From: Puniceicoccaceae bacterium K14
GTDB taxonomy: Bacteria > Verrucomicrobiota > Verrucomicrobiia > Opitutales > Opitutaceae
Reading direction: 5' to 3'
NCBI GenBank assembly: GCA_022538095.1
Contig: JAKYXN010000049.1
Coordinates: 1-39,128, forward strand
DNA length: 39,128 bases
Part shown: positions 2,010 through 38,686 of the stretch, piece after piece
Position numbering within the stretch: the stretch's first letter is position 1
Layout: every line of letters starts with the position of its first letter
Notes under the pieces: generated by a model
Told to the model about the DNA's origin: nothing
Databases searched by the model: none
What the model saw: the letters and a program-made list of their open reading frames with translations, nothing else
Program-made: the position numbers and the translations under genes

Positions 2010-2034
2010 TCGAATAAATACAACATCTCTCTAC

Positions 2035-3081: not shown

Positions 3082-3088
3082 TCAGACA

Positions 3089-3982: not shown

Positions 3983-4048
3983 TACTTTTTTTCTTAAAAA
4001 TAATATAGACTTGGGGCAAATAATGCTTCATTCCACCCACTAAATTCG

Positions 4049-4486
4049 ATGAACGAACGAGACACAACAGAGCGAATCAGCATGACGCTGCCAAAGTCGA
4101 CCCTGTCACAACTGGACAGTATGGTTGATCGTCGCGGCTTTTCAAACCGATCTCAAGCCATCACTGAAATCATCAACAAAGAGCTCGTTGAATACAACCA
4201 GCGACTTGATGAGACCGTTATGGCAGGAACCATTACGCTCTTTTATAACAATGCTCGCTCGGGCCTTCCAGGCAAACTGGCCAAAATTCAACGAGCTCAT
4301 ATCAATGAAGTCATAAGCTCACTACATGTTCAACTCGAAGACAACCACACCATGGAAGTAATCCTGGTACAAGGTCCAGCTGCCAACCTTCGAGAAATCG
4401 CAGACGAGTTAATAACCTGCAAAGGAGTCAAAACCGGCAACCTCAACTTAACAACGGTTGTCCTCCCTCCAATTCATTCAAAATAG
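4049..4486 (+). CDS. NikR-like ribbon-helix-helix regulator with altered metal site
   Basis: This is a 145-residue DNA-binding regulator. The N-terminal ribbon-helix-helix ([19 protein letters not shown] then [10 protein letters not shown]) and the C-terminal ACT-like ligand domain match the NikR family in order and length. By hand alignment to E. coli NikR, the four high-affinity nickel ligands His76, His87, His89 and Cys95 fall on Arg, His, Gln and Thr here, so only His87 is kept. The protein therefore probably does not sense nickel through the classical square-planar site. Lying inside an operon for urea- or guanidine-type nitrogen use, it probably controls that operon, perhaps through the dyad at 971-996. 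The effector is unknown. Confidence 0.85.
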
Positions 4487-4493
4487 TAGTCAA

Positions 4494-5216: not shown

Positions 5217-5248
5217 CCCTAATCTCCAACCACTCACCCACGCAACAA

Positions 5249-5884
5249 ATGTTAGTTGAAAGCAAACAAGATCCATCTAATGCCCTCTACAGCAAGACTA
5301 TTCTCGCTGGCGATCATTGGATGAAAGAAATTAAAAAAGGCCAAACCTTTCGCATTCTTGATCTAGAAGGTAATCAAGCAGCTGATACACTCTTTTATAA
5401 CGCTCACGATCCAAGCGATCGCTATAGCGCGTCTGACACTGTTCAACGTCAAGCAGCTGTTTACCTAACAACCGGTACAGGTCTTATTTCCACTGAAGGC
5501 AATACCTTGCTAACAATCACTGCAGACACCTGCGGGCGTCACGATACACTAGGAGGCGCTTGCTCTCGCGAAAGCAACACCATGCGCTATGACTTAGAAA
5601 AAGATCACATGCACGCCTGTCGGGATATTTTTCTCTGTGGTATAACTGAATGGGGTCATGGGATGGGCAAACGGGACATCACGTGCAATATCAACTTTTT
5701 CATGAACGTTCCTGTCACCCCAGACGGAAAGCTCACCTTCGCAGATGGGATCAGCGCTCCTGGACGGTACGTCGAAATGAAAGCAGAAATGGATGTAATC
5801 GCTCTTATTTCAAACTGCCCACAATTAAACAATCCCTGTAACGCATACAATCCGACTCCTGTCCAAGTATTCATTTGGGACTGA
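5249..5884 (+). CDS. DUF1989 protein UAAP2 (carboxyguanidine deiminase subunit family)
   Basis: This is the second, shorter DUF1989 paralogue (211 residues), matching urea amidolyase-associated protein 2. It shares with its upstream neighbour the opening pattern ([11 protein letters not shown] versus [11 protein letters not shown]) and the signature [17 protein letters not shown], followed by a conserved '[10 protein letters not shown]' segment and an '[13 protein letters not shown]' strand near the C-terminus. The two genes probably arose by duplication and, by analogy with CgdAB, the products act as a heteromeric deiminase in the cytoplasm. It is followed 40 bases later by the carboxylase gene, consistent with one transcript. 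Confidence 0.88.
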
Positions 5885-5924
5885 CAAGTAACCCCCGTTG
5901 CAGAACTATTAATCATCACTTTCC

Positions 5925-9524: not shown

Positions 9525-9529
9525 ATTCA

Positions 9530-16063: not shown

Positions 16064-19000
16064 ATGATGCGCTCAACCCTCAAACGCTTTGTCCTAGCCG
16101 CTACGTTTCTATCCGGATGTATAGCCGTTCTCGCACAACCAGTAATCGATACAAAATTACTCGAATGGCGTAATAATGATATCGTTTCTCTACTATCTGA
16201 AGGCGAAACACTCGATCTTGGCTCGTTTGAGGTCAATACCCTGAATCGAGAGGAAACAAGAGCATTCTTTAATTCAATTTATATGACATCCGAAAATGTC
16301 GACATGGGATGGACTGGCGACTATTTCAACCTCGACAACACTGTAACTGCAGCAGGCGATATCTCGGAAAACTTCAAACTGGCCACGCTTCTTCGCATCA
16401 ATTATTTCCGTGCGATGTGCGGATTGCCTGCTGACATCATCTTAGATCCAGAGTTGAATGCAAATTGCCAGTTAGCCGCGTTAATAATGAGCGGAAACGA
16501 TTCTCTATCACACTTCCCGCAAACAGATTTATTTCCCAACTACCTAACAATCATCGGTGATGAGACTGCCGGCAAATCCAACATCGCCATCGGGTCTAGC
16601 GGTCCCGATTCCATTGTCGGTTACATGCGAGACAAAGGTGCCAGCAATTACAAAGCAGGTCACCGCCGTTGGATACTATACCCACCTGCTTACAAAATGG
16701 GCACAGGCGACGTTCCAGGTGGAACCGCACCAGACTCAATAATAACCGAAATAACCAATTTTCTCGGGGCGGCTCCAAACAACGACGTTCTGAGATCGGC
16801 CAACTCGCTCCAAGTCATTACAGACTTCAATTCAACACGACCAGTAACCTCTTGGCCCTTTGTATCCTACCCCGCCCCCGGATACGCTCCCTACCAAGTG
16901 GTCTATCCTCGTTGGTCGTTCTCAATTGAAGATGCAGATTTCTCAGGTGCCACTGTCACAATGACACGAAACGGAGAAACCGTCGCTGTTGTGCTAGAAG
17001 ACGAAGCATTTAATATTGGAGACAACACTTTAGTTTGGGTTTACGATAACCAAAATAGCAATGACAGCATCTCTCATACTCAACCATCTGAAGACACTGA
17101 ATACATAGTAACAGTATCCAACATCGCGAATGCTCCACAGAGCGAATACATTTACACAGTTACCGTTTTCGATCCAGCGACTATCGGTGACGATTTTGTC
17201 CCGACTTCAATATCGGGCGCCACAGAACCTCTCATTGGAATCGGAAATAATTACTCAATTCAAAGTCCAGGTAATTGGGTAGACAATTTTAAGTGGAGGT
17301 CTTTCACGTTAGAAAATGAAACAAATGTGTGGGATGCGGAAAATGAAGATCTCAATGCAACCTTCGTGACAGATGACGGTTATGATGTGACTCAATCCGA
17401 GGTTGTTAACAACGGGGCTAATAGTTACCACTTCATTCAAATCGATTTTAACAATCAGTATCTAGAAATCGATACAGAATTCGTTGCGACAGAATCAAGC
17501 TCCATTGGCTTTAATAGCCGAATCCGGGCAATGACTGATGAACAGTTCGCAGAAGTTCAAATTTCTTTAGACAACGGCATCTCTTGGCAAACAATAGACT
17601 CCCAGCAAGGACTCGGCTCAGGCGGAGAATCTGATTTTTCACAACGATCTATAGACTTATCCGACTACCAAGGGTTTTCCTTTCACATCCGTTTTGGTCT
17701 GCTCTTAAAAGGAAATTCTGCGTTCATCGGCACCAATCCACATAGCTTGGAAGGTTGGTTTTTTGACGACATAACCTTTACAAACGTCTTCAAAGTAGAA
17801 AATGCAATTGAAAGCGAGATATCAGAAAACACAAATTTCTCATTTGCACCGTCGGGGTCCGCGACAGTAGCCCTCCAAGCTCAAGGAATTATTTTTGACG
17901 AATATGGAATAGAACGCGGGCCGGTCTTCATCGTTAATCCAGTTTCTGGAACAAACGCAGCTCCAATAGCAGTTGATGATGCTGCTGAAATCGACGAGGG
18001 CGTCATAAATACAAGTGGCAATGTCTTAGACAACGATACGGACAGCGATACAGACGCACAACTGTCAGTAGCCACAGTAGCCAATCTAGAAACCAATGTG
18101 GGTACAGCCATCACAACTACTTACGGAACGATCAGCGTCCAATCAGATGGCAATTTTGTCTACACCCTAGACGCAAGCAACACTGATGTGCAAGGGCTCA
18201 ACGACGGGCAGACACTGGCTGATATCATCCAGTATTCAATAACGGACACCCACGAAACCGCTTCTGCTGAACTCACAATAACTATCAACGGAAAAACGGA
18301 TGTGATTCCCTTCGGCCAACTCATAAACATCTCCACTCGAGGCAAAGTCCAAACGGGGGATAGCATTATGATCGGTGGTTTTGTCATCGAAGGAAACGAC
18401 GACCTCACTGTCCTCGTACAAGGAGTCGCTGAAGAGTTATCTGGATTGGACGAGTCTTCGCTATTAGCAGATCCGTTCATTTCTATCGTCAATGAAGCGG
18501 GTGACGTACTACACAGTAACAACGATTGGGAATCCGACGACGCTGAATTAAAAGCTCAAACAATGACACGTATTGGAGCAACCGAACTCCAGACTGGTAG
18601 CAAATCTGCAGCCTTACTTGAAACACTCTCTCCAGGAATCTACACAGTCTTTCTTTACGGTGTGCAAGAAGCCGAAGGCATCGCCTTAATCGAAGTATAC
18701 GATGCAACTGAAGGAAATGACACAGATAGCGAATTAATAAACATCTCAACTCGCGGAGATGTTGGAATCGAAAGTGACGTAATGATCGGTGGCTTCGTAA
18801 TTGAAGGCAATACAAGCAAAAATGTATTGATACAAGGAGTCGGGCAAGAACTCGTCGGCATCGATAGCGAAAAACTCCTGTCAGATCCCGTTATATTCTT
18901 GGTAAACTCAGAAAACGAAATAATTGCGAGTAACGATGATTGGGAAGTTGAGAATAAAGAGGTAAAAGCAGCTGTAGCCGACTCCCTGGGATCTACAACA

Positions 19001-19126
19001 CTCGTCAGTGATAGCACTTCCGCTGCTCTATACCTAGAACTCGAGCCTGGAATCTACACAGTCATATTGTCAGGAATTGAAGGAGCCACAGGGATCGCAC
19101 TAATCGAAGCTTATATTGCTGATTAG
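16064..19126 (+). CDS. Large secreted CAP-domain protein with VCBS-like and tandem C-terminal repeats
   Basis: This is a 1020-residue secreted protein with a signal peptide (about 1-25, ending in Val-Leu-Ala-Gln). An N-terminal CAP/SCP-type domain (about 85-250) shows LLRINYFRAMCGLP, an 'LSHFP' segment and GHRRWILYPP. Beta-rich regions of Ig-like character follow to about 620, including a stretch typical of lectin/MAM-like domains ('GWFFDDITF'). A VCBS/cadherin-like unit (about 625-745, AVDDAAEIDEG, NVLDNDTDSDTD) precedes two homologous C-terminal repeats of about 130 residues. The start could be the ATG at 16064 or at 16067. No enzyme activity is evident. A role in surface adhesion or extracellular matrix is inferred. 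The gene is monocistronic. Confidence 0.8.
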   Translation: MMRSTLKRFVLAATFLSGCIAVLAQPVIDTKLLEWRNNDIVSLLSEGETLDLGSFEVNTLNREETRAFFNSIYMTSENVDMGWTGDYFNLDNTVTAAGDISENFKLATLLRINYFRAMCGLPADIILDPELNANCQLAALIMSGNDSLSHFPQTDLFPNYLTIIGDETAGKSNIAIGSSGPDSIVGYMRDKGASNYKAGHRRWILYPPAYKMGTGDVPGGTAPDSIITEITNFLGAAPNNDVLRSANSLQVITDFNSTRPVTSWPFVSYPAPGYAPYQVVYPRWSFSIEDADFSGATVTMTRNGETVAVVLEDEAFNIGDNTLVWVYDNQNSNDSISHTQPSEDTEYIVTVSNIANAPQSEYIYTVTVFDPATIGDDFVPTSISGATEPLIGIGNNYSIQSPGNWVDNFKWRSFTLENETNVWDAENEDLNATFVTDDGYDVTQSEVVNNGANSYHFIQIDFNNQYLEIDTEFVATESSSIGFNSRIRAMTDEQFAEVQISLDNGISWQTIDSQQGLGSGGESDFSQRSIDLSDYQGFSFHIRFGLLLKGNSAFIGTNPHSLEGWFFDDITFTNVFKVENAIESEISENTNFSFAPSGSATVALQAQGIIFDEYGIERGPVFIVNPVSGTNAAPIAVDDAAEIDEGVINTSGNVLDNDTDSDTDAQLSVATVANLETNVGTAITTTYGTISVQSDGNFVYTLDASNTDVQGLNDGQTLADIIQYSITDTHETASAELTITINGKTDVIPFGQLINISTRGKVQTGDSIMIGGFVIEGNDDLTVLVQGVAEELSGLDESSLLADPFISIVNEAGDVLHSNNDWESDDAELKAQTMTRIGATELQTGSKSAALLETLSPGIYTVFLYGVQEAEGIALIEVYDATEGNDTDSELINISTRGDVGIESDVMIGGFVIEGNTSKNVLIQGVGQELVGIDSEKLLSDPVIFLVNSENEIIASNDDWEVENKEVKAAVADSLGSTTLVSDSTSAALYLELEPGIYTVILSGIEGATGIALIEAYIAD
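18320..19123 (+). repeat. Two tandem ~130-residue C-terminal repeats in the CAP-domain protein
   Basis: Repeat 1 begins at 18320 and repeat 2 at 18734. Both start with LINISTRG and continue with MIGGFVIEGN, a conserved VQG, 'NDDWE'/'NNDWE', SAALLETL versus SAALYLEL, PGIYTV and a final GIALIE. Divergence at the DNA level shows an old duplication. Similar terminal repeats are common on secreted proteins of Verrucomicrobiota. Confidence 0.85.
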
Positions 19127-24069: not shown

Positions 24070-26199
24070 ATGAATACTACTGAACTCAAGGAACTCAAAA
24101 CACCTTACACAGTAAAACTAGACGGAGGAGACCCCGAGGAGAAAAGGGAGGAAATAAGACGCTATTTCCACGAAACCTACGACGCTTACGAAATTCTTTT
24201 CGAAGCTCTAATTGACGACCAAGCCTACTACAAACGAGCAGACGCGCTTCGCCACCCAATTATTTTCTATTATGGGCACACCGCCACGTTTTTCATGAAC
24301 AAGCTCATCCTCGGCAAGTTCATTGATAAACGCATCAACCCGAAGTTTGAGTCTATGTTCGCAATCGGGGTCGATGAAATGTCATGGGACGACTTGAACG
24401 ATGGCCACTATAGTTGGCCAGAAGTAAAAGAAGTAACCGAGTACCGACAGCAAGTTCGCCAAATCATAGACGACTTAATATCCTCCGCCCCCATATCCCT
24501 TCCAATCAATTGGGAAAGCCCATTCTGGACGATTATGATGGGCATCGAACACGAGCGCATTCACCTCGAGACAACATCCGTACTCATCCGGCAACTACCC
24601 ATTGAACTTTTGGATGCCAGACATTCGAGCTGGCAAGTTAGCAATAACCTCGCAGATGCGCCAGAGAACAAACTAATCGAAGTTCCTGGGGCAATTGTCA
24701 CAATCGGCAAGCAATCAGATCAAAACGTCTATGGTTGGGACAATGAATACGGAGTACTAACCGAACAGGTTGAAGATTTCAAAGCATCCAAATTCCTTGT
24801 ATCCAATAAGGAGTTTCTAGAATTCATAAATGACAACGGATATCGAACCAAAGATTACTGGACCGACGAAGGTTGGAATTGGAATCAATACGAAAAAGCA
24901 ACCTCTCCACGATTCTGGATTGAGGAAGATGGCGCATACAAATACCGCTCGATGCTCGACGTGATCGAAATGCCATGGTCCTGGCCGGTTGAAACAAACT
25001 ACTTAGAAGCAAAGGCATTCTGCAATTGGAAAGCAGCCAAAACCGGAAAGCCAATCCGCCTCCCGAGCGAGGAAGAATGGTACCGCCTGCACGAATACGT
25101 TGAATTAGCTGATGCCATCGAATGGGAAAAAGCTCCAGGCAACCTAAACCTGGAAGGACCCGCATCGGCCGTTCCAGTAAATACCCACGAATTCAATCAT
25201 GGATTCTTCGACGTTATGGGTAATGTTTGGCAGCATACTGAAACTCCAATTCGAGGATTCGCAGGCTTCCAAGTTCATCCACTTTACGACGATTTCTCTA
25301 CGCCTACCTTCGACACCAAGCACAATATAATAAAAGGAGGCTCTTGGATTTCAACAGGAAACGAAATCTTGAAAGCATCACGCTATGCCTTCAGAAGGCA
25401 TTTTTATCAACACGCCGGTTTCCGCTATATTGAATCCGATGCCGAGGTAGTCATTCCAGACGACAACTACGAAACAGACACCGAAGTCATTCCATACTGC
25501 GAATTTAACTACGGCCCAGATTACTTTAACACAGACAATTACCCGGAAAAAATTGCCCAAATCTGCCTTGCCCACTCGCAAGAAATAAATAAAGGCAAAG
25601 CATTAAGCTTGGGATGTACCACTGGCCGCTCTGCATTCGAACTAGCGGTCGAATTCAAAAATGTAACCGGAATTGATTCTACCGCCCGCATGATTCGCAT
25701 CGGCGTACAAATGAAAGACAAAGGCTACACCCAGTATGTTCTTCCAAAAGAAGGTGAAATCCATTCTTTCAAACAACGAAATCTTCAAGAGCTCGGCTTA
25801 GATGCTACCCGAGAAAAAGTAGAATTCATGCAAGCAGATATCTCTAATATGAAGGATATCTATTCAGGTTACGATCTCATTCTTGTGGATACAATTCTTG
25901 AAAGGACATATAAACCAGAGAACTTTCTCAAATCCGTTCACCGGCGATTGAATACGGGTGGCATTCTAGTAATATCCTCGACTTACGATTGGCAAGCAGA
26001 CGCCACTGAACGAGAAAACTGGCTCGGAGGCTTTAAGGTCGATGGAGAAAATGTAACGACACAAGATAAGCTAGAATCGATCTTAGGAACAAACTTCAAA
26101 CAAGTGGTAAAACCTCAAGACGTTCCATTCGTACTTCGCAAAAACAAGCGATCCTACGATCACAAAATCGCCCAGGTCACTGTTTGGAAAAAGAGCTGA
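24070..26199 (+). CDS. ovoA: Ovothiol biosynthesis protein OvoA (5-histidylcysteine sulfoxide synthase / methyltransferase)
   Basis: This iron enzyme joins cysteine to histidine as a sulfoxide and methylates the later product, in ovothiol A synthesis. It has 709 residues in the OvoA order. A DinB-like domain contributes iron ligands His70 (YYGHTATFF) and the HxxxHxE motif at 161-167 (EHERIHLET). A formylglycine-generating-enzyme-like sulfatase domain (about 195-460) contains RLPSEEEWYRL, FFDVMGNVWQ and KGGSWISTGN. A C-terminal SAM-dependent methyltransferase (about 470-709) has its glycine-rich loop SLGCTTGRS at 513-521. The fused methyltransferase separates it from EgtB of ergothioneine synthesis. 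No separate C-S lyase gene (OvoB) is adjacent. A terminator follows. Confidence 0.94.
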   Translation: MNTTELKELKTPYTVKLDGGDPEEKREEIRRYFHETYDAYEILFEALIDDQAYYKRADALRHPIIFYYGHTATFFMNKLILGKFIDKRINPKFESMFAIGVDEMSWDDLNDGHYSWPEVKEVTEYRQQVRQIIDDLISSAPISLPINWESPFWTIMMGIEHERIHLETTSVLIRQLPIELLDARHSSWQVSNNLADAPENKLIEVPGAIVTIGKQSDQNVYGWDNEYGVLTEQVEDFKASKFLVSNKEFLEFINDNGYRTKDYWTDEGWNWNQYEKATSPRFWIEEDGAYKYRSMLDVIEMPWSWPVETNYLEAKAFCNWKAAKTGKPIRLPSEEEWYRLHEYVELADAIEWEKAPGNLNLEGPASAVPVNTHEFNHGFFDVMGNVWQHTETPIRGFAGFQVHPLYDDFSTPTFDTKHNIIKGGSWISTGNEILKASRYAFRRHFYQHAGFRYIESDAEVVIPDDNYETDTEVIPYCEFNYGPDYFNTDNYPEKIAQICLAHSQEINKGKALSLGCTTGRSAFELAVEFKNVTGIDSTARMIRIGVQMKDKGYTQYVLPKEGEIHSFKQRNLQELGLDATREKVEFMQADISNMKDIYSGYDLILVDTILERTYKPENFLKSVHRRLNTGGILVISSTYDWQADATERENWLGGFKVDGENVTTQDKLESILGTNFKQVVKPQDVPFVLRKNKRSYDHKIAQVTVWKKS

Positions 26200-26262: not shown

Positions 26263-26322
26263 ACGTAAAATTAGGATTCAGTACCGTAACTCGAACTAGT
26301 AAAATTAACGAATAAAAGACCT

Positions 26323-26571
26323 ATGACAATTGACTACGCTGAAGCAGGATGGGCCACCGTCGCCTCCGAATTTGGTGAAAGAGCGACTGAAGAAAAACAA
26401 AAAAATCACTTCGAGGAACTCATGCATTTTGCCCAACGAAACAACATTACTCTGTTTTGGTTCGAAGCCTTTGACGAGGATTGGAAAGGCAATGACAACA
26501 ACCCACTTGGAGCAGAAAAACACTGGGGCATATTCGAAATCGATCGTACACCCAAACTCGTAATTGAATAG
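26323..26571 (+). pseudogene. C-terminal fragment resembling a GH17-family protein
   Basis: This 82-residue open frame reads like the last part of a GH17-type beta-glucan-active protein: 'EAGWAT' corresponds to the ETGWP strand carrying the nucleophile region, and FWFEAFDEDWKG, EKHWGIF and DRTPKLV match the usual end of the barrel. A full GH17 domain needs about 300 residues. The upstream in-frame sequence (26290-26322) shows no further similarity, and the ovoA terminator lies just before it. It is therefore either a degraded remnant with an intact tail or a small independently expressed derivative; the first is more likely. The beta-glucan theme agrees with the GH30 locus next to it. Confidence covers the family resemblance. 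Confidence 0.6.
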
Positions 26572-26585
26572 TAGATAATGGTCCC

Positions 26586-26605
26586 GCCTGGCTTCCTAGC
26601 CGGGC
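26586..26605. terminator. Stem-loop between convergent genes
   Basis: GCCTGGCT (26586-26593) pairs with AGCCGGGC (26598-26605), eight pairs including one G-U, with loop TCCT. It lies between the GH17-like fragment and the end of the ROK kinase operon and could end transcription from both sides, but neither strand has a U-run. Confidence 0.45.
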
Positions 26606-26609
26606 GCTC

Positions 26610-27584
26610 CTACTCTACCTCCGCAAACACCAATGCCGCAGCGCCTAAAATCGCTGCTTCACCCATCGGAAGCTGGCTTTCAATGATCTCGGTTCGGCCT
26701 TTGTAGATCGGGATCATATGCTCTTCGAATGCGTTTCGAATCGGATCCAACAGAATATCTCCAGCCTGAACAGGCCCGCCGAATAGGAAAAAGGCCGCCG
26801 GGCTCGTGACCAATGCAACTGATGCCAATGCTTGGCCAAGGCGCTCGCCTGTTTCCTCGATTGTCGCTTTCGCGACCTCGTCGCCTTTCTCAGCAATCTC
26901 AACGATCTCTTTAGATGTCACCGCATTGATAGGTTTCTCATCGAGCATCGTAGGAATCCCCATTTCAGCAATTTTGGCAAAAAAAGTACGGCGAATTCCT
27001 GTCGCTGAACAATAGTTCTCCAAGCTACCCCGACGCCCATACCCGCAAAAACGTCCCCCGGGATCAAAAGTCATATGCCCCACCTCACCAGCGCAACCGG
27101 TGTGCCCATAGACCATTTTATTATCCACATACACGCCGCTCCCTAAGCCAGTGCCCAAAGTAATCATAATGAAATCCGTGTACTCTTTTGCACCCCCAAA
27201 AATTTTCTCTCCGATGGCTGCTGCATTGGCATCATTGGTCAGCACAACCCTATCCATTCCGAGTCGCTCCCTCAGCATCGCAGCAAGAGGTGTATTTCCT
27301 TTGAAGTTCAAATTCGGAGGCTCCTCGATTGCTCCTGTCCAATAGTTAGCGTTTGGAGCACCTGAACCGACACCGACCCACTCCAAGGAAGCATCAGCTC
27401 CATACGACTCCTCAACCTCCTTCTTGAGCGACTTTATTACCGTCGCCAACTGGTCTGCATAAAGCCCGCCGTCGAAAAAATCTGCCGTATTAAATGAAGA
27501 ATGACCGAGAATCCTCCCGTCTCTATTCACCACGCCTACGCGGGTATTCGTTCCGCCAATGTCGATACCAAATGCCAGTTTCAT
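26610..27584 (-). CDS. ROK-family sugar kinase (glucokinase-like)
   Basis: This probably phosphorylates glucose or a related hexose in the cytoplasm. It is 324 residues, has no N-terminal HTH and so is a kinase rather than a NagC/Mlc repressor. The ATP-binding start DIGGTNTRVGVV (8-19), the catalytic Asp118 in TNDANAAA, and ITLGTGLGSG (141-150) are intact. The structural zinc motif is unusual: His170 and Cys180 are present, but the positions normally occupied by the second and third Cys are Tyr182 and Ser187 (CGYGRRGSLE instead of the family CxCGxxGCxE). It is the last gene of the three-gene enzyme operon, 63 bases after GH30, giving hydrolysed sugar a route into glycolysis. Confidence 0.9.
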   Translation of the reverse strand: MKLAFGIDIGGTNTRVGVVNRDGRILGHSSFNTADFFDGGLYADQLATVIKSLKKEVEESYGADASLEWVGVGSGAPNANYWTGAIEEPPNLNFKGNTPLAAMLRERLGMDRVVLTNDANAAAIGEKIFGGAKEYTDFIMITLGTGLGSGVYVDNKMVYGHTGCAGEVGHMTFDPGGRFCGYGRRGSLENYCSATGIRRTFFAKIAEMGIPTMLDEKPINAVTSKEIVEIAEKGDEVAKATIEETGERLGQALASVALVTSPAAFFLFGGPVQAGDILLDPIRNAFEEHMIPIYKGRTEIIESQLPMGEAAILGAAALVFAEVE

Positions 27585-27647: not shown

Positions 27648-29174
27648 TTAGTTCTTAAACACCAGTGTCTGAATCGCTTGCGCCGGGATCGAAAGTTCAA
27701 CCGTATTGGTTTCGTCAACCACAAGGGAGTAAACTTTGTCGGACTCTCCCTCATTGAACACAACAACACTTGTGCTGCCGTCTGCGTTAGAAGCGGCTGT
27801 CGCCATCAAAGAATCATCAGAGACATCGATGTCAATGCGCACTGCTCCAGGTCGAATAAATCGCGAGAAATGGCACATCGCGTAGTAAAGAGGCGTGTAA
27901 AAGACCGTTTGCGTCTTGCCATCTATCAGTACCGGCGCGCCGCAAAAGTTACTAGCGTGATTAGGCCCTCCGTTAAAATCCAGTGCGATGTTCCAATCAA
28001 TCCAACCTGTGACCCAGTGATTCATCGTACCAATCATATCGCGGATGTAGCGATACACAGGCGCATACATTGGGTGATCTGGCTTCTCTTCATCAGTTGC
28101 CCATATGTAGCCCCAATCCGTCGCTTCTTTGCGCCAATACCAATCGCTCTCCAACCAAACACCTTCGGGTTCGTCATCTCCTAAAGCATCGATACAGCCC
28201 TCAGATTGAATAATCTCCATTTGAGGAAATTTATTGTGAACCCGGTCCAGAATCTCCCCATAGTAATCCACAGTACTGCTATACCAATGCACCGCGGTTC
28301 CGGCTACATATTGAGCAGCATCTTCGTTACCCAAAATGGTATCCGTCCATTCCTCAACGTGGTTTCTATTTTGGTCGAATACGAAAACTTTCGTATCCAG
28401 TTTTTCTTGCTTTAGCAATGGCCCCAAATCTCTGGCGATGAATTCTGTCATTTCTTCCGGCGAAAAATGCATACTCTCCCAATTTGAATCGTTTCCTTGA
28501 GGTTCATTCTCAGGCGTTAGCCCCCATATATCGATTCCCTCATCAGCATAAGCCTTAATATAACGTACGATGTAATTCGCAAAGGTCGCAGAATACTCAG
28601 GTTTAAGCGATCCGCCATTCCAGTCGTTGTTGTCTTTCATCCATGGAGGCGCTGTCCACGGTGAAGCGACAATCTTGAAATCAGCGCCCTCCACTTGCAT
28701 CGCATCTTGGATTAACGGCAAAACCCATCTTCGATCATGATCAATCGAAAAATGCTCCAACGACGCATCGCCCTCCACCCTAGCATAGGAATAGTTACTC
28801 AAGGAAAAATCGCAACTGCCAATATGCGAGCGCATCAATGTATAGCCGGCCTTGCTTGGAGAAAAATAAGCTTCCAACACTTCCTGACGCTTCTCATCGC
28901 TCAATAGCGACATCACGTAAGCAGAACTCTCGGTGAACGCTCCCCCAAAACCACGCAGCGTTTGAAACTTCTTATTCGAATCGACCGTTATCGCGGTCTG
29001 TGGCACAGCCTGTGGCTGCGAATGAAGTTTCAGCTCAGTCATAGAATCTCCCGCACGGGAAGTCTGATAAATCGTTGGCATCGTCATTTCTTTCGAAAAA
29101 ATAGTAGGCGTAAACGAGATAAACAGACATCCGCAGACAGTTGTCTGAACTAGTTTTTTCAATACATATTTCAT
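27648..29174 (-). CDS. Secreted glycoside hydrolase family 30 enzyme
   Basis: This is an extracytoplasmic beta-glycosidase. A Sec signal peptide (about 1-28) precedes a GH30 barrel in the 508-residue protein. The family landmarks are GFGGAFTESSA (75-85), SPWTAPPWMKDN (171-182), the acid/base Glu224 in TPENEP, and the nucleophile Glu325 in QSEGC. The C-terminal beta-sandwich ends the protein. Family members include glucosylceramidases and endo-beta-1,6-glucanases; subgroup 1 or 3 is plausible here, and the adjacent glucokinase-like gene favours a glucoside. The start codon overlaps the upstream stop as ATGA, showing translational coupling to the 1161-residue protein. Confidence 0.93.
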   Translation of the reverse strand: MKYVLKKLVQTTVCGCLFISFTPTIFSKEMTMPTIYQTSRAGDSMTELKLHSQPQAVPQTAITVDSNKKFQTLRGFGGAFTESSAYVMSLLSDEKRQEVLEAYFSPSKAGYTLMRSHIGSCDFSLSNYSYARVEGDASLEHFSIDHDRRWVLPLIQDAMQVEGADFKIVASPWTAPPWMKDNNDWNGGSLKPEYSATFANYIVRYIKAYADEGIDIWGLTPENEPQGNDSNWESMHFSPEEMTEFIARDLGPLLKQEKLDTKVFVFDQNRNHVEEWTDTILGNEDAAQYVAGTAVHWYSSTVDYYGEILDRVHNKFPQMEIIQSEGCIDALGDDEPEGVWLESDWYWRKEATDWGYIWATDEEKPDHPMYAPVYRYIRDMIGTMNHWVTGWIDWNIALDFNGGPNHASNFCGAPVLIDGKTQTVFYTPLYYAMCHFSRFIRPGAVRIDIDVSDDSLMATAASNADGSTSVVVFNEGESDKVYSLVVDETNTVELSIPAQAIQTLVFKN

Positions 29175-32100
29175 CTGTCTATTAAAACTCCTTCTGGCAA
29201 ATTAACTTCAATGCTTAAAATCGATCCGTTTCTAGCAAATAGAACACGTGATTCCTCTTTCGATAATGAAAAGCCAGTGCGCCTTACAATTTCGCCATTC
29301 CCCATATGGACTACGACTCCAGGTTCATTTCCTAGAGAGTATCGAATCAATGTTTGGCAATAGGTGAACGCAATACAGCCAGTAGGTATCCTTTCCGAAC
29401 TTACTACGCCATCTTGCCCGATGTAATCAAAGACCTTCTCTTCCTTCAAAAATTCAGACTTTCGCAATAGCAAAGGCTTAAAGGAAACAACTCCCTTTTC
29501 CACAAAAACTCCGAGTTCTCCCCATCTAGAAAGAATATCCTCCTTAACTTGTCCAGTCATCCCAGGTTGTTGCACTCCCGCGTGCTTTGGCGTATGTGAA
29601 TAGGCATCCGTCGGGAACGCTCCGTATTGCATCGGCGTCTTATCAAAACCCAGTCCATTCAGCGTTGCGAAATAGTGAGAAGCCAACGAATCCAATACAT
29701 CACTACAGTTCCCACAACAGCATTCCTTGTAATAATTCTCCTGTATTGCCAAGAGCAACTTCGAAACCATGTGCCAATAAACACTCCCTAAGCCCTCATA
29801 GGCGAAAAAAGTTCCCGAGCGTCCCGTAAAACTACGATGATTGAAAGTGTCATCAAAGATGGACAACAGTTTTTTTTCCTCTTCCGCATCGACAACAGCA
29901 GAGTAGTCAACACGAATATCGCTGATTGCCCTAGCCACATCCAAGCTATTGCGAAAGTCCCCGTTAAACCTGAAACCTCCCGAGACATCTTTTGCGATAA
30001 TCCTCTCATCACCCCGCCCGATCATTGACTTCAGCAGTTCTGATTGAGCGATCTTGTCTTCAGACACCCTGTTTTTTTCCAAGAATCTAGGCAATTCACG
30101 ATCTGGATACAAAATATAGCTTTCGACATCTTCTCGATAGAGGGCACTCGACCGTAAACTATCCAACAATTCGACAGCCTTCCTTGGTGTCAGTCGGTTC
30201 GAACTTAAAGCAGCTACTTGTCCTTCCAGCATTTCCGACAAATTATCGATTTCAACACCTCTACCTCCTATAGGACGAAGTAAATTGTAGGAATTAAACA
30301 TCCCGTCTGAGCGTTCATTGGAATCGATAGAGCGCCCAACAAACTTCAAAGCATGAGAGACGTAGGATCTCAATTTTGTTACAGATACACCTATGCGCTC
30401 CAATCCAAACCTTGATTCATACACTGAGTTTCGGAAATTCTCGCCCGCGATTCCTAAAGACTCCAGCATCGCAAACCGCTCTGCAGCCGCAAATTCGTCA
30501 TTGATCAACTTCTCCTTCTCTTCGAGACATGCGAGTTGATCCTCGAGAAACTCAGCCAAATATCGATCAAACAAAACAGCATTGGTAGCTTCCAAATTAG
30601 CTAACTGGCTATCTAAAAATTGCAGATAACGGTAGACATAGCACAGAGTCACAACCGAAACGCCATATCCCACCAATGCATTATTCGCATCATTCCACTC
30701 CGGCCGCTGTGTATTCATCCAAATACCACCATCCGGTACAAAATTAGACATTTTGGCTAATAACGGAGCAAACAGTTTCTCTGTTAAATTAGCCCTAACG
30801 ATATTGCCAGAGGATGTACGCAAAAGCTTATCATCTGCCCCCACGCTCTTTTCACGATTCGCAATTTCATAAGCAGCCTTGTCGTCATAATCAACTGTGT
30901 CACGAGGGTTTTCCCATATTTTGGAAAATCCTTTAATACGATACGGAACGTGAGCGAAAACAAAATTTTCCTGTGACAACAAAGCCTGCAATGCCTCAGG
31001 CTTATGCTTATCCAATGCTTCAAGCAATTTGAGCAAATAGATGATTTGATGATCCCCCCAATAGCCTATATTTGACCAAGCCTCATCAGAATCCAGAATT
31101 TCCCAATCGAACCCATCGCGAGTCACCCGGTAAGGATTGTATCCGTCTGCCGTTGACGAATTTAGAAAGCGACTAATCATTCCCTCGATAAAATCTGGAA
31201 AAGAATAAGCCAAGGGTTCCCAGTTTTGAAAAATGTCTCTCCAATTTCCCTGGTAGGTCAAAATAGGATTTCCCTCTTCGTCTTGAGTTTCAATCGAGAA
31301 CTGATTCCATGGTCGACTGGGGTCACCGTGCCTACGACTAAAAGATAAAGGCAAGTATTCAGTCACTAAGCGCACCAGATCACGGTCACTTGAATCCATT
31401 GCCCAATCGATCAGGTCACTATGTGATATCGTTCGGCCCAAGCCGTTCAAAGCGATTTCATGCCGTTCTGAAACATCCCCATTCCAGGTCCTTAGATAGC
31501 TAATTAAATCCAATACATCAATTTCGTAACCGCAATCGAAGATTCCACCGCGCATAATATTGAACAATGTATTCGAATGATGACGCGCGTCTCGCAAGCG
31601 ATCCGATGTCAGTTGGAAGCCATCCGACAACCCAACTTTTTTCCGAAGTTTTTCATCATTTTTTCGAATATCATTAAGCAATTCCGCGCACAATTTTCCT
31701 TGATCCCCAAGCTGTACACGCAATCCTTCCACTTGCTTCGCATCCTGATTGATATCTGCCACGATCCACCAATCTTTTTTGCCTTTCGAAGGTACCTGAA
31801 AAGTAGATTCGACGAAATAGGCGCAGCGTAATCCACGCGTTTCAGGTTCCAATTCAATTTCACCGCCCTCCCGAAATATTTCTACTTGCGTTGGAGAGAG
31901 TAGCACAGTCTTCGCATCGATACCTAGAGACCATGCTACGGTTGCACGCAGTCCCTCACTTGGCTCCGCTCGATCCGTCGGAATTGAACTTAGGTAGAAA
32001 ATCCCAAGCCTCTCCGCCTCAAGCAATTCGTTCTTTTTGTAGGCGTCAGCCAGATTGCTATAGAGATTCAAGAACGTTTGATTTAGTCCATAAGGGACCA

Positions 32101-32656
32101 AATTTTGAATACCATCCAATAATCGGATGCAGCTACAATTATCCCCGAAGTTTTCGACTGTTGCTTTTTTAACAAACCCAAACCTTTCACTCGTTTCCCA
32201 CGAATACCGAAAAGCAACTTCGAGTTCCAAATGGACTTCCTCAAATATAATTTTGTTGCCGTCGATACTCTTATACAAATTTCTCTGAATACGATCCTTG
32301 CAATAGTCACTGCAAAAGGGTTCCCAAAAAACTGCAGAGCCATTTTTTGCTTCCACCCAAATCAAAGTCGAGCTCCCCACCGTATTCGCGGACTCGAATA
32401 GCTTATCTTGCGTACAGTAAGGAAACAAAGCATTGTCAGCGTCCTTACGACCCGCCGTTAACGCGCCATTACTCGATACGAATATCCAATGGTTCGAACC
32501 GCTAACGATATTCATCAAAAAGGGGGGCAGCCGATCAGAATCCGCTATGCGGTAAAACGGTTTGTCGTCTAATTCAACAAATCCGCAAAAAGACTTCTCT
32601 ATTTGTGGACGCGGTGTTTGCAAAGATGGTTCAATTGGAGGGGTTTGAAGACTCAT
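29171..32656 (-). CDS. Large cytoplasmic protein, probable six-hairpin glycosidase/phosphorylase-like
   Basis: This 1161-residue protein lacks a signal peptide. I cannot place it in a named CAZy family. The N-terminal third looks beta-rich (PFLMNIVSGSNHWIFVSSNGALTAGR, WVEAKNGSAVFWEPF) like the sandwich of GH94/GH15-type enzymes. The centre has highly patterned blocks: RRHGDPSRPWNQFSI, YQGNWRDIFQNWEPLAYSF (from residue 468), STADGYNPYRVTRDGFDWE, YWGDHQIIYLLKLLE and RPEWNDANNALVGYG (Glu653, Asp656), resembling catalytic helices of (alpha/alpha)6-barrel enzymes. It heads the GH30-ROK operon behind a TGCA-N6-TGCA operator and overlaps GH30 by 4 bases. Action on an imported oligosaccharide, perhaps as a phosphorylase, is inferred. 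Confidence 0.7.
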   Translation of the reverse strand: MSLQTPPIEPSLQTPRPQIEKSFCGFVELDDKPFYRIADSDRLPPFLMNIVSGSNHWIFVSSNGALTAGRKDADNALFPYCTQDKLFESANTVGSSTLIWVEAKNGSAVFWEPFCSDYCKDRIQRNLYKSIDGNKIIFEEVHLELEVAFRYSWETSERFGFVKKATVENFGDNCSCIRLLDGIQNLVPYGLNQTFLNLYSNLADAYKKNELLEAERLGIFYLSSIPTDRAEPSEGLRATVAWSLGIDAKTVLLSPTQVEIFREGGEIELEPETRGLRCAYFVESTFQVPSKGKKDWWIVADINQDAKQVEGLRVQLGDQGKLCAELLNDIRKNDEKLRKKVGLSDGFQLTSDRLRDARHHSNTLFNIMRGGIFDCGYEIDVLDLISYLRTWNGDVSERHEIALNGLGRTISHSDLIDWAMDSSDRDLVRLVTEYLPLSFSRRHGDPSRPWNQFSIETQDEEGNPILTYQGNWRDIFQNWEPLAYSFPDFIEGMISRFLNSSTADGYNPYRVTRDGFDWEILDSDEAWSNIGYWGDHQIIYLLKLLEALDKHKPEALQALLSQENFVFAHVPYRIKGFSKIWENPRDTVDYDDKAAYEIANREKSVGADDKLLRTSSGNIVRANLTEKLFAPLLAKMSNFVPDGGIWMNTQRPEWNDANNALVGYGVSVVTLCYVYRYLQFLDSQLANLEATNAVLFDRYLAEFLEDQLACLEEKEKLINDEFAAAERFAMLESLGIAGENFRNSVYESRFGLERIGVSVTKLRSYVSHALKFVGRSIDSNERSDGMFNSYNLLRPIGGRGVEIDNLSEMLEGQVAALSSNRLTPRKAVELLDSLRSSALYREDVESYILYPDRELPRFLEKNRVSEDKIAQSELLKSMIGRGDERIIAKDVSGGFRFNGDFRNSLDVARAISDIRVDYSAVVDAEEEKKLLSIFDDTFNHRSFTGRSGTFFAYEGLGSVYWHMVSKLLLAIQENYYKECCCGNCSDVLDSLASHYFATLNGLGFDKTPMQYGAFPTDAYSHTPKHAGVQQPGMTGQVKEDILSRWGELGVFVEKGVVSFKPLLLRKSEFLKEEKVFDYIGQDGVVSSERIPTGCIAFTYCQTLIRYSLGNEPGVVVHMGNGEIVRRTGFSLSKEESRVLFARNGSILSIEVNLPEGVLIDR

Positions 32657-32957: not shown

Positions 32958-34022
32958 ATGGCCAAACCGAACCAAAAGCTAATCGCAGAAAAACTTAAGC
33001 TCTCTCGAACAACCGTTTCTCGATGCTTCACCAACCATCCTAAAATAAACCCAGAAACCCGCGCCAAAGTTTTTCAGCTAGCTGCCGAAATGGGATTCAG
33101 TTATTCGCAACAGAGAAATAGCACTGGCCAACGCGAAGACTCTGAAAGAAATACGATCGCCGTCATCGTAGGTATTGATCGCTCGGTAAAAGACGCTGTA
33201 AAAACAGCCGGCAACGTACTCAAAGGAATCAGCGAAAAAGCGGCAAACGCCGGGCTCGAAATCGAAGTCCACTACATAAATCCCGCAGACTTCAATCCGC
33301 AACCACGCTCACGCAAAATCATCAAAAACGTGAGCTGCACAAACTGGAAAGGCGTCGTACTAATATACAATTTCTCAGAAGCAGCAGTCACGAATGTGAT
33401 GGCAAAATTTCCTACAGTGTCAGTTCTAGAGGACTACCAATCCATTGATGTAGATTGTATTAGCCAAGATCAAGTAAGAGGAATTAGCAAACTAATGGAA
33501 CACCTCCATGATATTGGCCACCATCGGATCGGTTTCATGAGCTGGAAATACGAAGTTAGAACTCCTTGGGTAGAACGCCGCTTAGGAGCTTATGTCGAAA
33601 ACCTATTTCGATTTGGAATCGAGCTGGACCCAAACCTTATCATCAATCTGCAGAAAGACGAAAACTTTTCCCTCAGCCAGCTTGTAGATAAAGTGGCTGA
33701 CCGTATTCAATCCGGAGTAACAGCATGGGTCTGTGCAGCGGATCACCAAGCCTACCATTTGCGAAATGAACTCGAAAAACGCGGAATACGCGTACCCGAG
33801 GATTGTTCAATTACTGGGTATGACGGAATCGAGCCCCCTGAAGGGGCTGATCAGATAACAACAATTCGCATGCCCTTTAAGGATATGGGCCACTCCGCGA
33901 TATCCTCTCTGATAAGAAAAATGGGAAACCCTACTGCTCAAAGGCATAATGTCCAAATTTCAGGCGAGCTACTAATTGACAAATCGACTGCCGCTCCCCC
34001 ACAACTAGCTTCGTCGGTATAG
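32958..34022 (+). CDS. LacI-family transcriptional regulator
   Basis: This is a 354-residue regulator with an N-terminal LacI helix-turn-helix: NQKLIAEKLKLSRTTVSRCF (5-24), then NHPKINPETRAKVFQLAAEMGF, the hinge-adjacent part. The periplasmic-binding-protein-like sensor domain follows (about 68-345), including 'HDIGHHRIGFMSWKYEVR' and 'PEDCSITGYDGIEPPEGADQITTIRMP', as usual. The gene is divergent from the enzyme operon and convergent with the symporter gene, so it sits in the middle of the locus it probably controls. The palindrome TGCA-N6-TGCA is the likely site. The ligand is unknown but should be a sugar derived from the imported glycan. Confidence 0.92.
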   Translation: MAKPNQKLIAEKLKLSRTTVSRCFTNHPKINPETRAKVFQLAAEMGFSYSQQRNSTGQREDSERNTIAVIVGIDRSVKDAVKTAGNVLKGISEKAANAGLEIEVHYINPADFNPQPRSRKIIKNVSCTNWKGVVLIYNFSEAAVTNVMAKFPTVSVLEDYQSIDVDCISQDQVRGISKLMEHLHDIGHHRIGFMSWKYEVRTPWVERRLGAYVENLFRFGIELDPNLIINLQKDENFSLSQLVDKVADRIQSGVTAWVCAADHQAYHLRNELEKRGIRVPEDCSITGYDGIEPPEGADQITTIRMPFKDMGHSAISSLIRKMGNPTAQRHNVQISGELLIDKSTAAPPQLASSV

Positions 34023-34240: not shown

Positions 34241-35608
34241 CTAAGAGTTTCTTTCGCTCAATTCTTTTTCCATCAAGCTTACATCCTCTTCAGATATAGA
34301 ATAAAAGAAGATCGAAACCGCACCGAGAGTGGCTAAAATCGCAGGAAAGACACTAAACATCAATCGTATCCCCATCATGGATTCACCTGTTTGAGCTTGG
34401 TTTGCGACAAAACCAAAAAACGAAAGAATATAGCCGGACAAGCCCGCCCCCACGGCTAAGCCCATTTTTTGAGCAAATTGTACGCCGGAGAAAACAAGAG
34501 CCGTTGTACGTCTTCCAGATTTCCACTCTCCATAGTCAGCGCAATCTGCATACATAGCCCAAACCAAAGCGGGCGTAGGCCCTGCAATCAACGCTCCAAT
34601 ACAATTCACAAATACCATCATCGAATACTGCTCCGGTGGTATAACAAAAAATACCGCCATTGAAACCGCATTGAGAAGTGTCAATGTTATAAGCAAACCT
34701 CGTTTCCCAAAGCGCTTACTAAGACTACTAGTCATAGCAATCCCGATCATCATAGCAAAGAGGCCGGATGACATAAACACCGCTGTTTTATCAAAAATTA
34801 GGAATATCGCGGCCCCATCATCACCAACGTAATACTTGAAGTAGTACATGATCGCCCCATTGCGAACTGCGACATTCATCAAGGTAAAAATTCCCGCAAA
34901 GAATAGAACAATCCAAGGCTTGTTGCTCAACAACGCTTCAAAATCCTTTCTCAGGTCCAACGTTTTTGGCGAGCGTTTCACTCTCTCTTTCGTCGTCGCA
35001 AAGGTTATCCAAAAAAGCAATATTGAGATAACCGCAAAGATAGCCATCGTCAGTCGAAAACCATTCGCTTCGTCTTCACCACCTAAGATATTTTTAAGTG
35101 GAGTTATAAACGTACCAATCAACCAAGCAGCCCCAAACGCGCAAATAAATCGGTAGGTGGACACCTTAGTGCGTTCTTCTGATACAGGCGAAATCACCCC
35201 CATTAATGCTGAATAGGGAATGTTAATTGCGGTATAAGCCAACATCATTAACGTATAGGTCGCATACGCGTAGGCGAGCTTACTCGCATCTCCCAAGGCA
35301 GGATTTGCAAACATCGCATACCCGAGCAACCCATAAGGAATCGCAGCAAAAAGCAGGTACGGTCTAAATTTTCCCCATCGAGAATTGGTGCGATCTGCAA
35401 CGATTCCCATCAAAGGATCGCTTATTGCGTCCACAGCTTTTGTAGCGATCATCATCGTACCCACTGCTGCCGGCGCTAAACCGAAAATATCAGTGTAGTA
35501 ATACAGTAGAAAAATATTGAATACCTGAAAAAAGAAATTGGAAGCAGCATCGCCCAGTCCATATCCAAGTTTTTCCGAAAACCGTAAAGGTTGGCTAGTA
35601 ATCGACAT
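34241..35608 (-). CDS. GPH-family (MelB-like) sugar:cation symporter
   Basis: This is an inner-membrane secondary transporter of the glycoside-pentoside-hexuronide family in the MFS superfamily. It has 455 residues and about twelve hydrophobic segments. The signature start EKLGYGLGDAASNFFFQ followed by YYYTDIFGL, and the loop ADRTNSRWGKFRPYLL, are diagnostic. It presumably carries the mono- or oligosaccharide released in the periplasm into the cytoplasm, where the 1161-residue protein and the ROK kinase act. It lies 99 bases downstream of the TonB receptor on the same strand, with a stem-loop between them that may dampen readthrough. Confidence 0.92.
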   Translation of the reverse strand: MSITSQPLRFSEKLGYGLGDAASNFFFQVFNIFLLYYYTDIFGLAPAAVGTMMIATKAVDAISDPLMGIVADRTNSRWGKFRPYLLFAAIPYGLLGYAMFANPALGDASKLAYAYATYTLMMLAYTAINIPYSALMGVISPVSEERTKVSTYRFICAFGAAWLIGTFITPLKNILGGEDEANGFRLTMAIFAVISILLFWITFATTKERVKRSPKTLDLRKDFEALLSNKPWIVLFFAGIFTLMNVAVRNGAIMYYFKYYVGDDGAAIFLIFDKTAVFMSSGLFAMMIGIAMTSSLSKRFGKRGLLITLTLLNAVSMAVFFVIPPEQYSMMVFVNCIGALIAGPTPALVWAMYADCADYGEWKSGRRTTALVFSGVQFAQKMGLAVGAGLSGYILSFFGFVANQAQTGESMMGIRLMFSVFPAILATLGAVSIFFYSISEEDVSLMEKELSERNS

Positions 35609-35707: not shown

Positions 35708-38686
35708 CTAGAACTCCATTCCATACTGAAGTTTCCAACTAATTCCTGGAGCATAAACCCAACCATAACGGTCTTTGTCATCCAAAACATTGTCCAGGTT
35801 CAATTGAACATATGCTGGGCGGTCACTGACTTTGAAGCTATACTTAGCCATCAAATTAACCTCGTAGCGAGGGTCATGCACGCGATTGAAAGGTAATCCC
35901 GTATCTGGATCAGTCGCAATTTGTCCGGAACCGTCAGTAATACCGGACTCAAACTCGCGCTCATCTTGCCACCAAGCTCCAAGCCCAAGAATCAACCCAT
36001 CCAAAGCCCCTTCATCGAATGCGTAGGTAGTCCAAGCACTCAACTCATGTTCCGGAGTATCGTCTTGTGGCTCGCCCTGCAACAAGCCAACGGCTTGCCA
36101 AGTTGACGTGTCTTCTGGGTCCGAATAGGCTTCATTCGGACCAAATGCTCCGCGAAGCCCCCAGTTGCCATCTGGGAAGTACCATACCGCCCAATTATCA
36201 ACATTACCTTCTGCCCACGGATATCTTGGAAAATCTGCAACCTTAGTAACTTCTCTTTCTGTCTTTGCATAATTGAATACAATTTGCCAGTTATCGGTTG
36301 GTTGGTATTGAAGGTTTAGCTCAACACCCTTCGATTCTTCGTTAGTTGGATAATGGGCAGTATAGGTGTTCCCATCTTCAGATCCCCAATCCATAGTTGC
36401 ATTGTTTGTAATGCTATCCTGGGTATACAGCCACCCAGGCCAACCGCCATAAGGATTACCTTCGTCGCCGTAATCAACATTCACCAATTCACCATCCGGC
36501 CCCTCTTCGACTCCCCGAGTCTTATAGAAGACCGAGTTGAGGTAAGCCGCACCTTCACCTGTGCTTGCGTTCACGTACCAAGTAGCGTCAGTTGCTGCGT
36601 CCGCAATAGCCTCAAACGCAGCGCCTGATGCAACCGCTGCATCCCATTCAGCTTGAGAAGCGGCTGCGGCACCATTTCCGCCATTGTTACCTGGGTTAAA
36701 GTTTCCAACATTGTAAATGATATCTGCATCTCGATCGAATTGATTCTTACCCGGAGCAGGTGCCCACCAATATGAAGTTGGTCTACCAATTTGCTCAATT
36801 TCGTAAGCACTAATAGTACCCGATAACTTACCTTCCATTAGTTCGAACTTAATACCAATTTCACGACTCTCCGCAGTTGCAGCATCGATCGGGTTTCCTA
36901 CCGCATCTAAATCGCCGTCGAAATTTGGGGTTATTCCTTCCGATTGTAGTGCAAAGATCGTCAATTGAGGAATAATCTCAAAACTCAAACCAAATTGACT
37001 CGTGTATTTCGATTGTTCAGGCGCATCCACAATATTAGCCGGATCCGTTGTTCGAAGATCAGAAGTTGATGAATAAACTTCGTTTTCGTCTTTTCTGCGG
37101 CCTATAATTGCAGTTATACGATCGTTGAAAAATTTGCCTTGGTACACAAAATAGGAACCTGTGTTTCTAGCTTCAGATACCACGCGGCTCGCAGGCGACG
37201 GCAAGAAACCTGTGGATCCGTCTGAGTTCTGACCTCTCACCCGGTAGATGTACTGAGAAGGATCAAAGTAATTAAATTCGCCATCATCCAATTCTTCTTT
37301 GTACTCATGGCGATTGAACTTCTCGCGAGATTGTCCAAGCAAAATACTATGCGTCATCTTTAGCGAATCAGAATTTGGGAATGTATCAAAACTATAGTTA
37401 AGCTCTCCTCTCCACTGGGCACGATCCAGCTTTTCATTCGTATATGATTCAGTACCTCGACCTATCATCACTAGCGGCGTCCCATCGTCATCTGCAGCAA
37501 GAGCAATATCGCCCTCCGCTGTCATAACATACGTTTCAAATGCAAATCCGTCAGGTTGCTCAATATCCACCTGAGCAATTGATCCGCCCATATCATATTG
37601 ATCGTATTCAACATTCGCTTCGTTATACCCAATTAAAATATTTAGGTTTTCACTGAAACTGTGTGTGACTTGCGTGCGAATATTATCAAAATCTGTATCT
37701 AAATACGTATCATTACCACTAAGACGCATTGTTCGTAATTCCGCAACACCTGGAAAAACGAGGAAACCAGAATTTTCGAGCCTGTCTTGTTGATCAGCAG
37801 CATTCTCTAAGCTCAAACTCGAATTAACGCGTAAACTATTGTATCCATTTCCCGAAGAATTGTAGTCTCCTTCTTCAAAATCGATTGTTACATCCGTTTT
37901 CTCTGTGGGTTTAAAAGTCAAAACTGGCGAAAAGAACAAATGATCGTCCTTTGCTAGCTCTGTATAACTTTCATTTTCTTCATACGCAGCTGTAAACAAG
38001 AACTTAAAGTCCCACGGTGTCCCTAAAGGCATATGGCCTTCGTATGTACCACGGCGATGGCCGTTATTTCCCATAGAAACTGAAGCTACATTCTTTGCAG
38101 AATCCCCAGGCTTCTTAGGGATATAGTTAACAATCCCGCCAAAATTCCCAATCCCGTACAACAAAGCAGATGGGCCGCGAATCACTTCGATTCGCCCTAC
38201 ATTAACTGCATCAGAAGTCACCTGCCTTCTGTATCCATCTCTCAGAGTCGCTTCGGTAATAAATCCGCGAACTTTATACGATGTATTCGTCTTATTAGCT
38301 GTAGTACCTTCTGCATTGTGAACTCCACCAGCTCCCACAGTACTGTTATTTGACCCCGCATCATTCTGAGACGACGTTAAGATACCCGAGCTATAGCGCA
38401 AAGATTCACGAAGATCCGTTGCTCCGATATCATCAATAAATTCTTCCGTAATTACCTCGATAGGCATCGGAATGTCTTTCAATTTCGTATTCAAACGCGA
38501 TCCAGAAATTGTATTTGTCGCTCTGTAACCGGAGTCCCCAGATGTATCCACCTCAAAAGGCGACAATTCATAAACTTCACTTTCAGGATCTTCATCTTGT
38601 CCCTGGACGACTCCAAGGGAAATGGAAGAGGCGACGGCTACGCAAAAAGCGCTCTTCCAGGGTACATGGGTTAGTAGAGTATTCAT
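35708..38686 (-). CDS. TonB-dependent outer-membrane receptor
   Basis: This is an outer-membrane beta-barrel that imports a ligand using TonB energy. A signal peptide (about 1-29, ending Val-Val-Gln-Gly) precedes VYELSPFEVDTSGDSGYRAT, a segment typical of Opitutae receptors that may include the TonB box. The plug domain follows (TKLKDIPMPIEVITEEFID, then RIEVIRGPSALLYGIGNFGG, the latter conserved in TonB receptors). The remainder is a barrel ending in a terminal Phe, as outer-membrane proteins do. It has 992 residues. There is no SusD partner, which is normal outside Bacteroidota. Two operator copies upstream and the downstream sugar symporter point to a glycan ligand rather than a siderophore. 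Confidence 0.94.
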   Translation of the reverse strand: MNTLLTHVPWKSAFCVAVASSISLGVVQGQDEDPESEVYELSPFEVDTSGDSGYRATNTISGSRLNTKLKDIPMPIEVITEEFIDDIGATDLRESLRYSSGILTSSQNDAGSNNSTVGAGGVHNAEGTTANKTNTSYKVRGFITEATLRDGYRRQVTSDAVNVGRIEVIRGPSALLYGIGNFGGIVNYIPKKPGDSAKNVASVSMGNNGHRRGTYEGHMPLGTPWDFKFLFTAAYEENESYTELAKDDHLFFSPVLTFKPTEKTDVTIDFEEGDYNSSGNGYNSLRVNSSLSLENAADQQDRLENSGFLVFPGVAELRTMRLSGNDTYLDTDFDNIRTQVTHSFSENLNILIGYNEANVEYDQYDMGGSIAQVDIEQPDGFAFETYVMTAEGDIALAADDDGTPLVMIGRGTESYTNEKLDRAQWRGELNYSFDTFPNSDSLKMTHSILLGQSREKFNRHEYKEELDDGEFNYFDPSQYIYRVRGQNSDGSTGFLPSPASRVVSEARNTGSYFVYQGKFFNDRITAIIGRRKDENEVYSSTSDLRTTDPANIVDAPEQSKYTSQFGLSFEIIPQLTIFALQSEGITPNFDGDLDAVGNPIDAATAESREIGIKFELMEGKLSGTISAYEIEQIGRPTSYWWAPAPGKNQFDRDADIIYNVGNFNPGNNGGNGAAAASQAEWDAAVASGAAFEAIADAATDATWYVNASTGEGAAYLNSVFYKTRGVEEGPDGELVNVDYGDEGNPYGGWPGWLYTQDSITNNATMDWGSEDGNTYTAHYPTNEESKGVELNLQYQPTDNWQIVFNYAKTEREVTKVADFPRYPWAEGNVDNWAVWYFPDGNWGLRGAFGPNEAYSDPEDTSTWQAVGLLQGEPQDDTPEHELSAWTTYAFDEGALDGLILGLGAWWQDEREFESGITDGSGQIATDPDTGLPFNRVHDPRYEVNLMAKYSFKVSDRPAYVQLNLDNVLDDKDRYGWVYAPGISWKLQYGMEF

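Follow-up and report, generated by a model that had tools for sequence, protein, structure and literature searches.

The window, i.e. the whole stretch of 39,128 nucleotides that was analysed, carries a cluster of six genes, among them a large GH149 gene, and beside it a remnant of a GH17 gene. The features are as follows.

26323..26571, plus strand: GH17 laminarinase gene remnant, 82 codons from the 3' end, corresponding to roughly the final quarter of the protein (Pfam, 6FCG, GH17 query from genome G018)
26610..27584, minus strand: ROK-family sugar kinase, 324 residues (Pfam, NCBIfam)
27648..29174, minus strand: GH30 family beta-glycosidase, 508 residues, signal-peptide-like N-terminus as judged by eye (Pfam, NCBIfam)
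29171..32656, minus strand: GH149 protein, predicted beta-1,3-glucan phosphorylase, 1161 residues, P0001 (NCBIfam, PDB sequence match, active-site residues)
32958..34022, plus strand: LacI-family regulator, transcribed divergently from the phosphorylase gene (Pfam, NCBIfam)
34241..35608, minus strand: GPH-family (MFS_2, PF13347) sugar:cation symporter, 455 residues (TIGR00792)
35708..38686, minus strand: TonB-dependent outer-membrane receptor, 992 residues (plug domain PF07715)

The phosphorylase frame runs through 1161 codons without interruption on the minus strand and contains the blocks YQGNWRDIFQNWE and RPEWNDANN, while frame 1 of the plus strand is broken by many stops across the same interval. 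The original prediction had delimited this frame correctly and had left its strand unsaid. The end of the phosphorylase gene overlaps the start of the GH30 gene by four bases, reading ...GACAGATGAAATATG..., in which ATGA provides both the GH30 start and the phosphorylase stop. From the GH30 stop, 63 bases lead to the ROK kinase gene. Thus, the gene order behind the previously proposed operon with GH30 and a sugar kinase is confirmed, and we infer from it that the three genes probably form one transcript. Likewise, the overlap behind the proposed coupling to GH30 is present in the DNA and suggests that the two genes are translationally coupled. A promoter scan yielded 5 sites (shuffle mean 10.7) and a terminator scan 3 sites (shuffle mean 6.4), in both cases fewer than in the shuffles.

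In a search of NCBIfam, the phosphorylase matched GH149 alone. The equivalog model NF058639.1 (GH149_beta_1_3, "1,3-beta-D-glucan phosphorylase, GH149 family") reached 1529.7 bits, far above its curated cut-off of 1150, aligning residues 25-1153 to profile positions 8-1133 of 1134. Pfam, which holds models for GH15, GH63 and GH94, gave no match at E up to 1. A search of all PDB sequences at E up to 10 returned three matches in total, namely Pro_7066, a crystallized bacterial GH149 beta-1,3-oligosaccharide phosphorylase (6HQ6/6HQ8), with 1162.8 bits over residues 18-1155 and, far weaker, 9h8v, named as a cellobiose phosphorylase (41.1 bits), and the GH161 entry 9qqk (40.2 bits). The alignment to Pro_7066 spans 6HQ6 chain residues 34-1171, insert regions included, in a numbering that runs 19 ahead of that of PMC6771811. 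Since the score lies far above the GH149 cut-off and a scan of genome contigs found at least 591 stretches encoding a relative of the phosphorylase, the similarity is far beyond chance. We conclude from its sequence that the phosphorylase is a member of GH149, a family described in 2018 and structurally characterized in 2019 (PMC5827456, PMC6771811). The family fold comprises an (alpha/alpha)6 catalytic barrel, an N-terminal beta-sandwich, a jelly roll and two inserts, Dom 1 and Dom 2. GH94 shares the catalytic plan of GH149 (PMC6771811). The original prediction could not place the protein in a CAZy family, a view that does not survive this clear match to a characterized family of known activity. 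GH15, GH63 and GH94, for which it had suggested a profile check, are ruled out by the silence of Pfam, the sole NCBIfam match to GH149 and the weak scores of 9h8v and 9qqk in the PDB search.

The active site of Pro_7066 is formed by W651-N652-D653, with D653 as the predicted catalytic residue, R470-D471, E951 and H959 (PMC6771811). In the alignment, with all letters checked, these residues map to W654-N655-D656, R473, D474, E954 and H962 of the phosphorylase. RPEWNDANN is the block with the catalytic loop, and its W-N-D motif includes D656, the predicted catalytic residue; YQGNWRDIFQNWE is the block with the donor-binding motif, whose R-D pair is held by GNWRDIF. Both blocks had been suspected to be catalytic, and rightly so, as they map onto the active-site motifs of Pro_7066. 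The phosphorylase hence carries the W-N-D and R-D motifs as well as the donor/phosphate-site Glu and His expected of GH149. All seven positions are invariant in 109 of 109 alignment rows (the phosphorylase and 108 distinct relatives), a selection made up of the best 80 of at least 591 matching stretches and of matches from further genomes. A hydrolase of the six-hairpin superfamily (GH15/GH63-like), which had been named as an option beside a phosphorylase, shares the (alpha/alpha)6 barrel class, but the lack of any Pfam match at E up to 1 and the presence of the R-D motif and the phosphate-site His typical of GH94 and GH149 phosphorylases leave this option a negligible chance. The guess of a phosphorylase agrees with the matches to NF058639.1 and Pro_7066 and with the retained active site.

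Among the matches listed, the nearest named relatives come from an Opitutales MAG (L009, 56% identity) and from Pelagicoccus mobilis (L010, 55%), and the phosphorylase is at most 56% identical to any aligned relative. In a midpoint-rooted FastTree tree of 109 sequences, it groups with L009, L010 and L002, the latter from a genome of the same family as the window, with a support of 1.0; the pairing with L009 alone has a support of 0.755. Pelagicoccus belongs to the Verrucomicrobiota, class Opitutia. Judging from these relatives and the tree grouping, the bacterium of the window probably belongs to the same phylum and class. A GH149 match occurs in 25 of 132 genomes of the order, 24 of them over the cut-off, and the window's own genome is within both counts. 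In one genome of the order (G088, contig 5, 12933-16333; L118, L119, L122), the GH149 gene lies in three pieces in different frames, reflecting either a broken gene or assembly errors. Ten plasmid records also contain GH149, seven of them from Vibrio and one each from Emticicia, Photobacterium and Treponema; identity is below 60% in every case.

Pro_7066 possesses a surface oligosaccharide site on its catalytic domain, formed by E990, Y993 and E994 (PMC6771811). The phosphorylase resembles Pro_7066 in its near full-length alignment and in the seven active-site residues, but differs here: the three residues are replaced by S993, F996 and A997 in the alignment, and a Pro_7066-type surface site is thus absent. 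The site does not define GH149, as the full E/Y/E set occurs in 37 of the 109 rows; taken singly, the second position is Y in 83 rows and the third is E in 77. We consider the difference to be variation within the family, because these residues are reported to be less conserved among more distant bacterial GH149 sequences (PMC6771811). With the surface residues replaced, the chain-length behaviour of the phosphorylase may differ from that of Pro_7066.

The neighbouring genes were assigned by profile searches. The GPH symporter exceeds the TIGR00792 cut-off of 231.35 with 403.1 bits. The best NCBIfam model for the ROK kinase is glucokinase TIGR00744, at 196.5 bits below its cut-off of 260.35. 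The GH30 protein matches the Pfam GH30 barrel model with 270.5 bits, and among the NCBIfam models an endo-beta-1,6-glucanase fits it best (278.6 bits, below the cut-off of 700). In an alignment with human glucosylceramidase, its E224 and E325 fall on E235 and E340, which we take to be the catalytic pair of that enzyme. A second GH30-like match is found on another contig of the genome. As the GH30 protein has a signal-peptide-like start, the phosphorylase and the coupled GH30 are probably not located in the same compartment. In Formosa, the exo-beta-1,6-glucosidase FbGH30 debranches laminarin, which the GH17 enzymes there attack better, or only, once it is debranched (PMC6246565). The window's GH30 protein has in common with FbGH30 the family and a laminarin-type gene setting, and by this analogy it is a probable beta-1,6 debranching enzyme.

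Type II GH149 clusters are described as containing a TonB receptor, an MFS_2 (PF13347) transporter, GHs and regulators, Bacteroidetes GH149 loci as containing GH3 and/or GH30_1 plus GH17 and/or GH16, and a LacI regulator as a Type I feature (PMC5827456). The window matches the clusters covered in that description in its TonB receptor, PF13347 transporter, regulator and GH30 gene near GH149. It differs from the Type II clusters in that its six-gene cluster has a LacI regulator and no two-component pair. Compared with the loci described there, no intact GH17 gene and no PF00722 match was found in the draft genome, the ROK kinase is an addition, and GH149 and GH30 show the 4-base overlap. Overall, the GH30, ROK, LacI, GPH symporter and TonB receptor genes, as assigned by sequence, fit published laminarin clusters. 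GH30 genes have also been reported near GH161 phosphorylase genes (PMC6484121). Among the best 80 of at least 591 GH149 loci, 47 have a GH30 match, always on the GH149 strand (47/47), and 33 have none within flanks of up to 10 kb; the 47 are a lower bound, because the flanks were often shorter. For loci L002-L008, with flanks of about 1.5 kb, a GH30 match was seen in 0 of 7. The Pelagicoccus locus shares the TonB-GPH-LacI-GH149 set with the window; it differs in having no GH30 match and in adding a GH16 gene and a protein whose match to a GH158 enzyme of solved structure scores 297.3 bits. A search of open PubMed Central found no paper on Pelagicoccus and laminarin.

These comparisons also bear on the substrate. 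A GH149-fold enzyme might truly act on another beta-glucan linkage or acceptor, e.g. gentio- or mixed-linkage oligosaccharides, and the identity of at most 56% to aligned relatives, the replaced Pro_7066 surface site and the endo-beta-1,6-glucanase model that best fits GH30, albeit below its cut-off and hinting at a beta-1,6-containing substrate, would be in keeping with this. We nevertheless consider such a specificity very improbable, since the score is well above the cut-off of a beta-1,3-specific equivalog, all seven active-site positions are retained and the cluster partners are those described for published laminarin loci.

Beside the cluster lies the GH17 remnant. The GH17 Pfam model matches 26320-26562 on the plus strand over model positions 223-303 of 306 (29.7 bits, cut-off 28.2), and no second GH17 match turned up in the draft genome (5.7 Mb, 97.36% complete, 358 contigs). 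From its first ATG, the frame has 82 codons. The remnant scores 38.9 bits against the structure 6FCG, which we take to be a Formosa GH17 enzyme. Uninterrupted GH17 frames of 345-370 residues occur in four relatives, whose identity to the remnant is 58-64%. Across the order, the Pfam model matched 13 of 132 genomes, 9 of them over the cut-off, with the window's own genome within both; it matched 0 of 14 control genomes. An intact GH17 gene served as second query. This gene, of 349 codons, ends just before the GH149 gene in G018, a genome of the same family. Its first 337 residues gave one match in the window's own genome, which fell on the remnant (residues 256-336, 59% identity). Hence, neither the Pfam model nor the G018 query found an intact GH17 gene in the draft genome. 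For GH16, PF00722 had no match in this draft genome and matched 6 of 14 control genomes. A GH81 search and a GH158 query, both run without a positive control, found nothing in the genome. Four GH3 matches are present, all on other contigs. The laminarinase search covered GH17, GH16 (PF00722), GH81 and GH158, and laminarinases of other families may be present. Taken together, these results suggest that the GH17 laminarinase gene of the locus has been lost, although a misassembly at the remnant is possible. The stretch 26584-26606 beside the remnant was considered as a repeat and rejected, as it occurs a single time in the genome with up to 2 mismatches allowed.

The loss of GH17, the retention of the coupled debranching GH30 and the loss of the phosphorylase's long-chain surface site might together indicate that a polymer-degrading laminarin locus has become a scavenging one. 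We regard this as unlikely; if it were true, the bacterium would feed on short branched pieces that other cells release.

The best explanation of the locus as a whole, to which we assign a probability of roughly 95%, is that of a GH149 beta-1,3-glucan phosphorylase acting on beta-1,3-gluco-oligosaccharides within a cluster for laminarin use. Activity, mechanism, fold, compartment, substrate and regulation are carried over here from characterized homologues. Beta-1,3-gluco-oligosaccharides would enter the cell via the TonB receptor and the GPH symporter and would meet the phosphorylase most likely in the cytoplasm. Phosphorolysis presumably proceeds as in GH94, on which we model it: D656 would protonate the glycosidic bond, and phosphate positioned near H962 would attack the glucose at the non-reducing end with inversion. 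The reaction is expected to yield alpha-glucose 1-phosphate and to shorten the chain by one unit. The coupled GH30, probably exported, would take off beta-1,6 side glucose, and the ROK kinase would phosphorylate free glucose. Control of the cluster would fall to the LacI-type regulator.

In its founding paper, the family is recorded from Bacteroidetes, Proteobacteria and Euglenophyta (PMC5827456). Eleven papers in open PubMed Central, PMC6246565 among them, mention GH149 as well as Verrucomicrobi- names, and GH149 may already have been reported from this phylum. The phosphorylase adds a GH149 member that is probably from Verrucomicrobiota and is linked to the bacterial laminarin economy. By sequence it is a typical bacterial representative of an established family in a cluster of a described type, and the general picture of the field stays as it was. 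A practical lesson is that Pfam was silent on this protein, while NCBIfam and the PDB sequences gave its family at once.

Elsewhere in the window, a urea amidolyase-type cluster lies at 1032-11326 on the plus strand, with ABC transporter genes, UAAP1, UAAP2, urea carboxylase (TIGR02712, 1897.5 bits) and allophanate hydrolase, the genes of the two enzymes overlapping by 25 bases. Clusters of this type often act on guanidine. An Rfam search of the window gave no family at gathering score and hence no guanidine riboswitch. The plus strand at 16064-19126 encodes a 1020-residue protein with matches to CAP, bacterial Ig and cadherin-like domains. At 24070-26199, also on the plus strand, we found an OvoA-type 5-histidylcysteine sulfoxide synthase with a methyltransferase domain (ovothiol biosynthesis), for which both curated cut-offs were exceeded.
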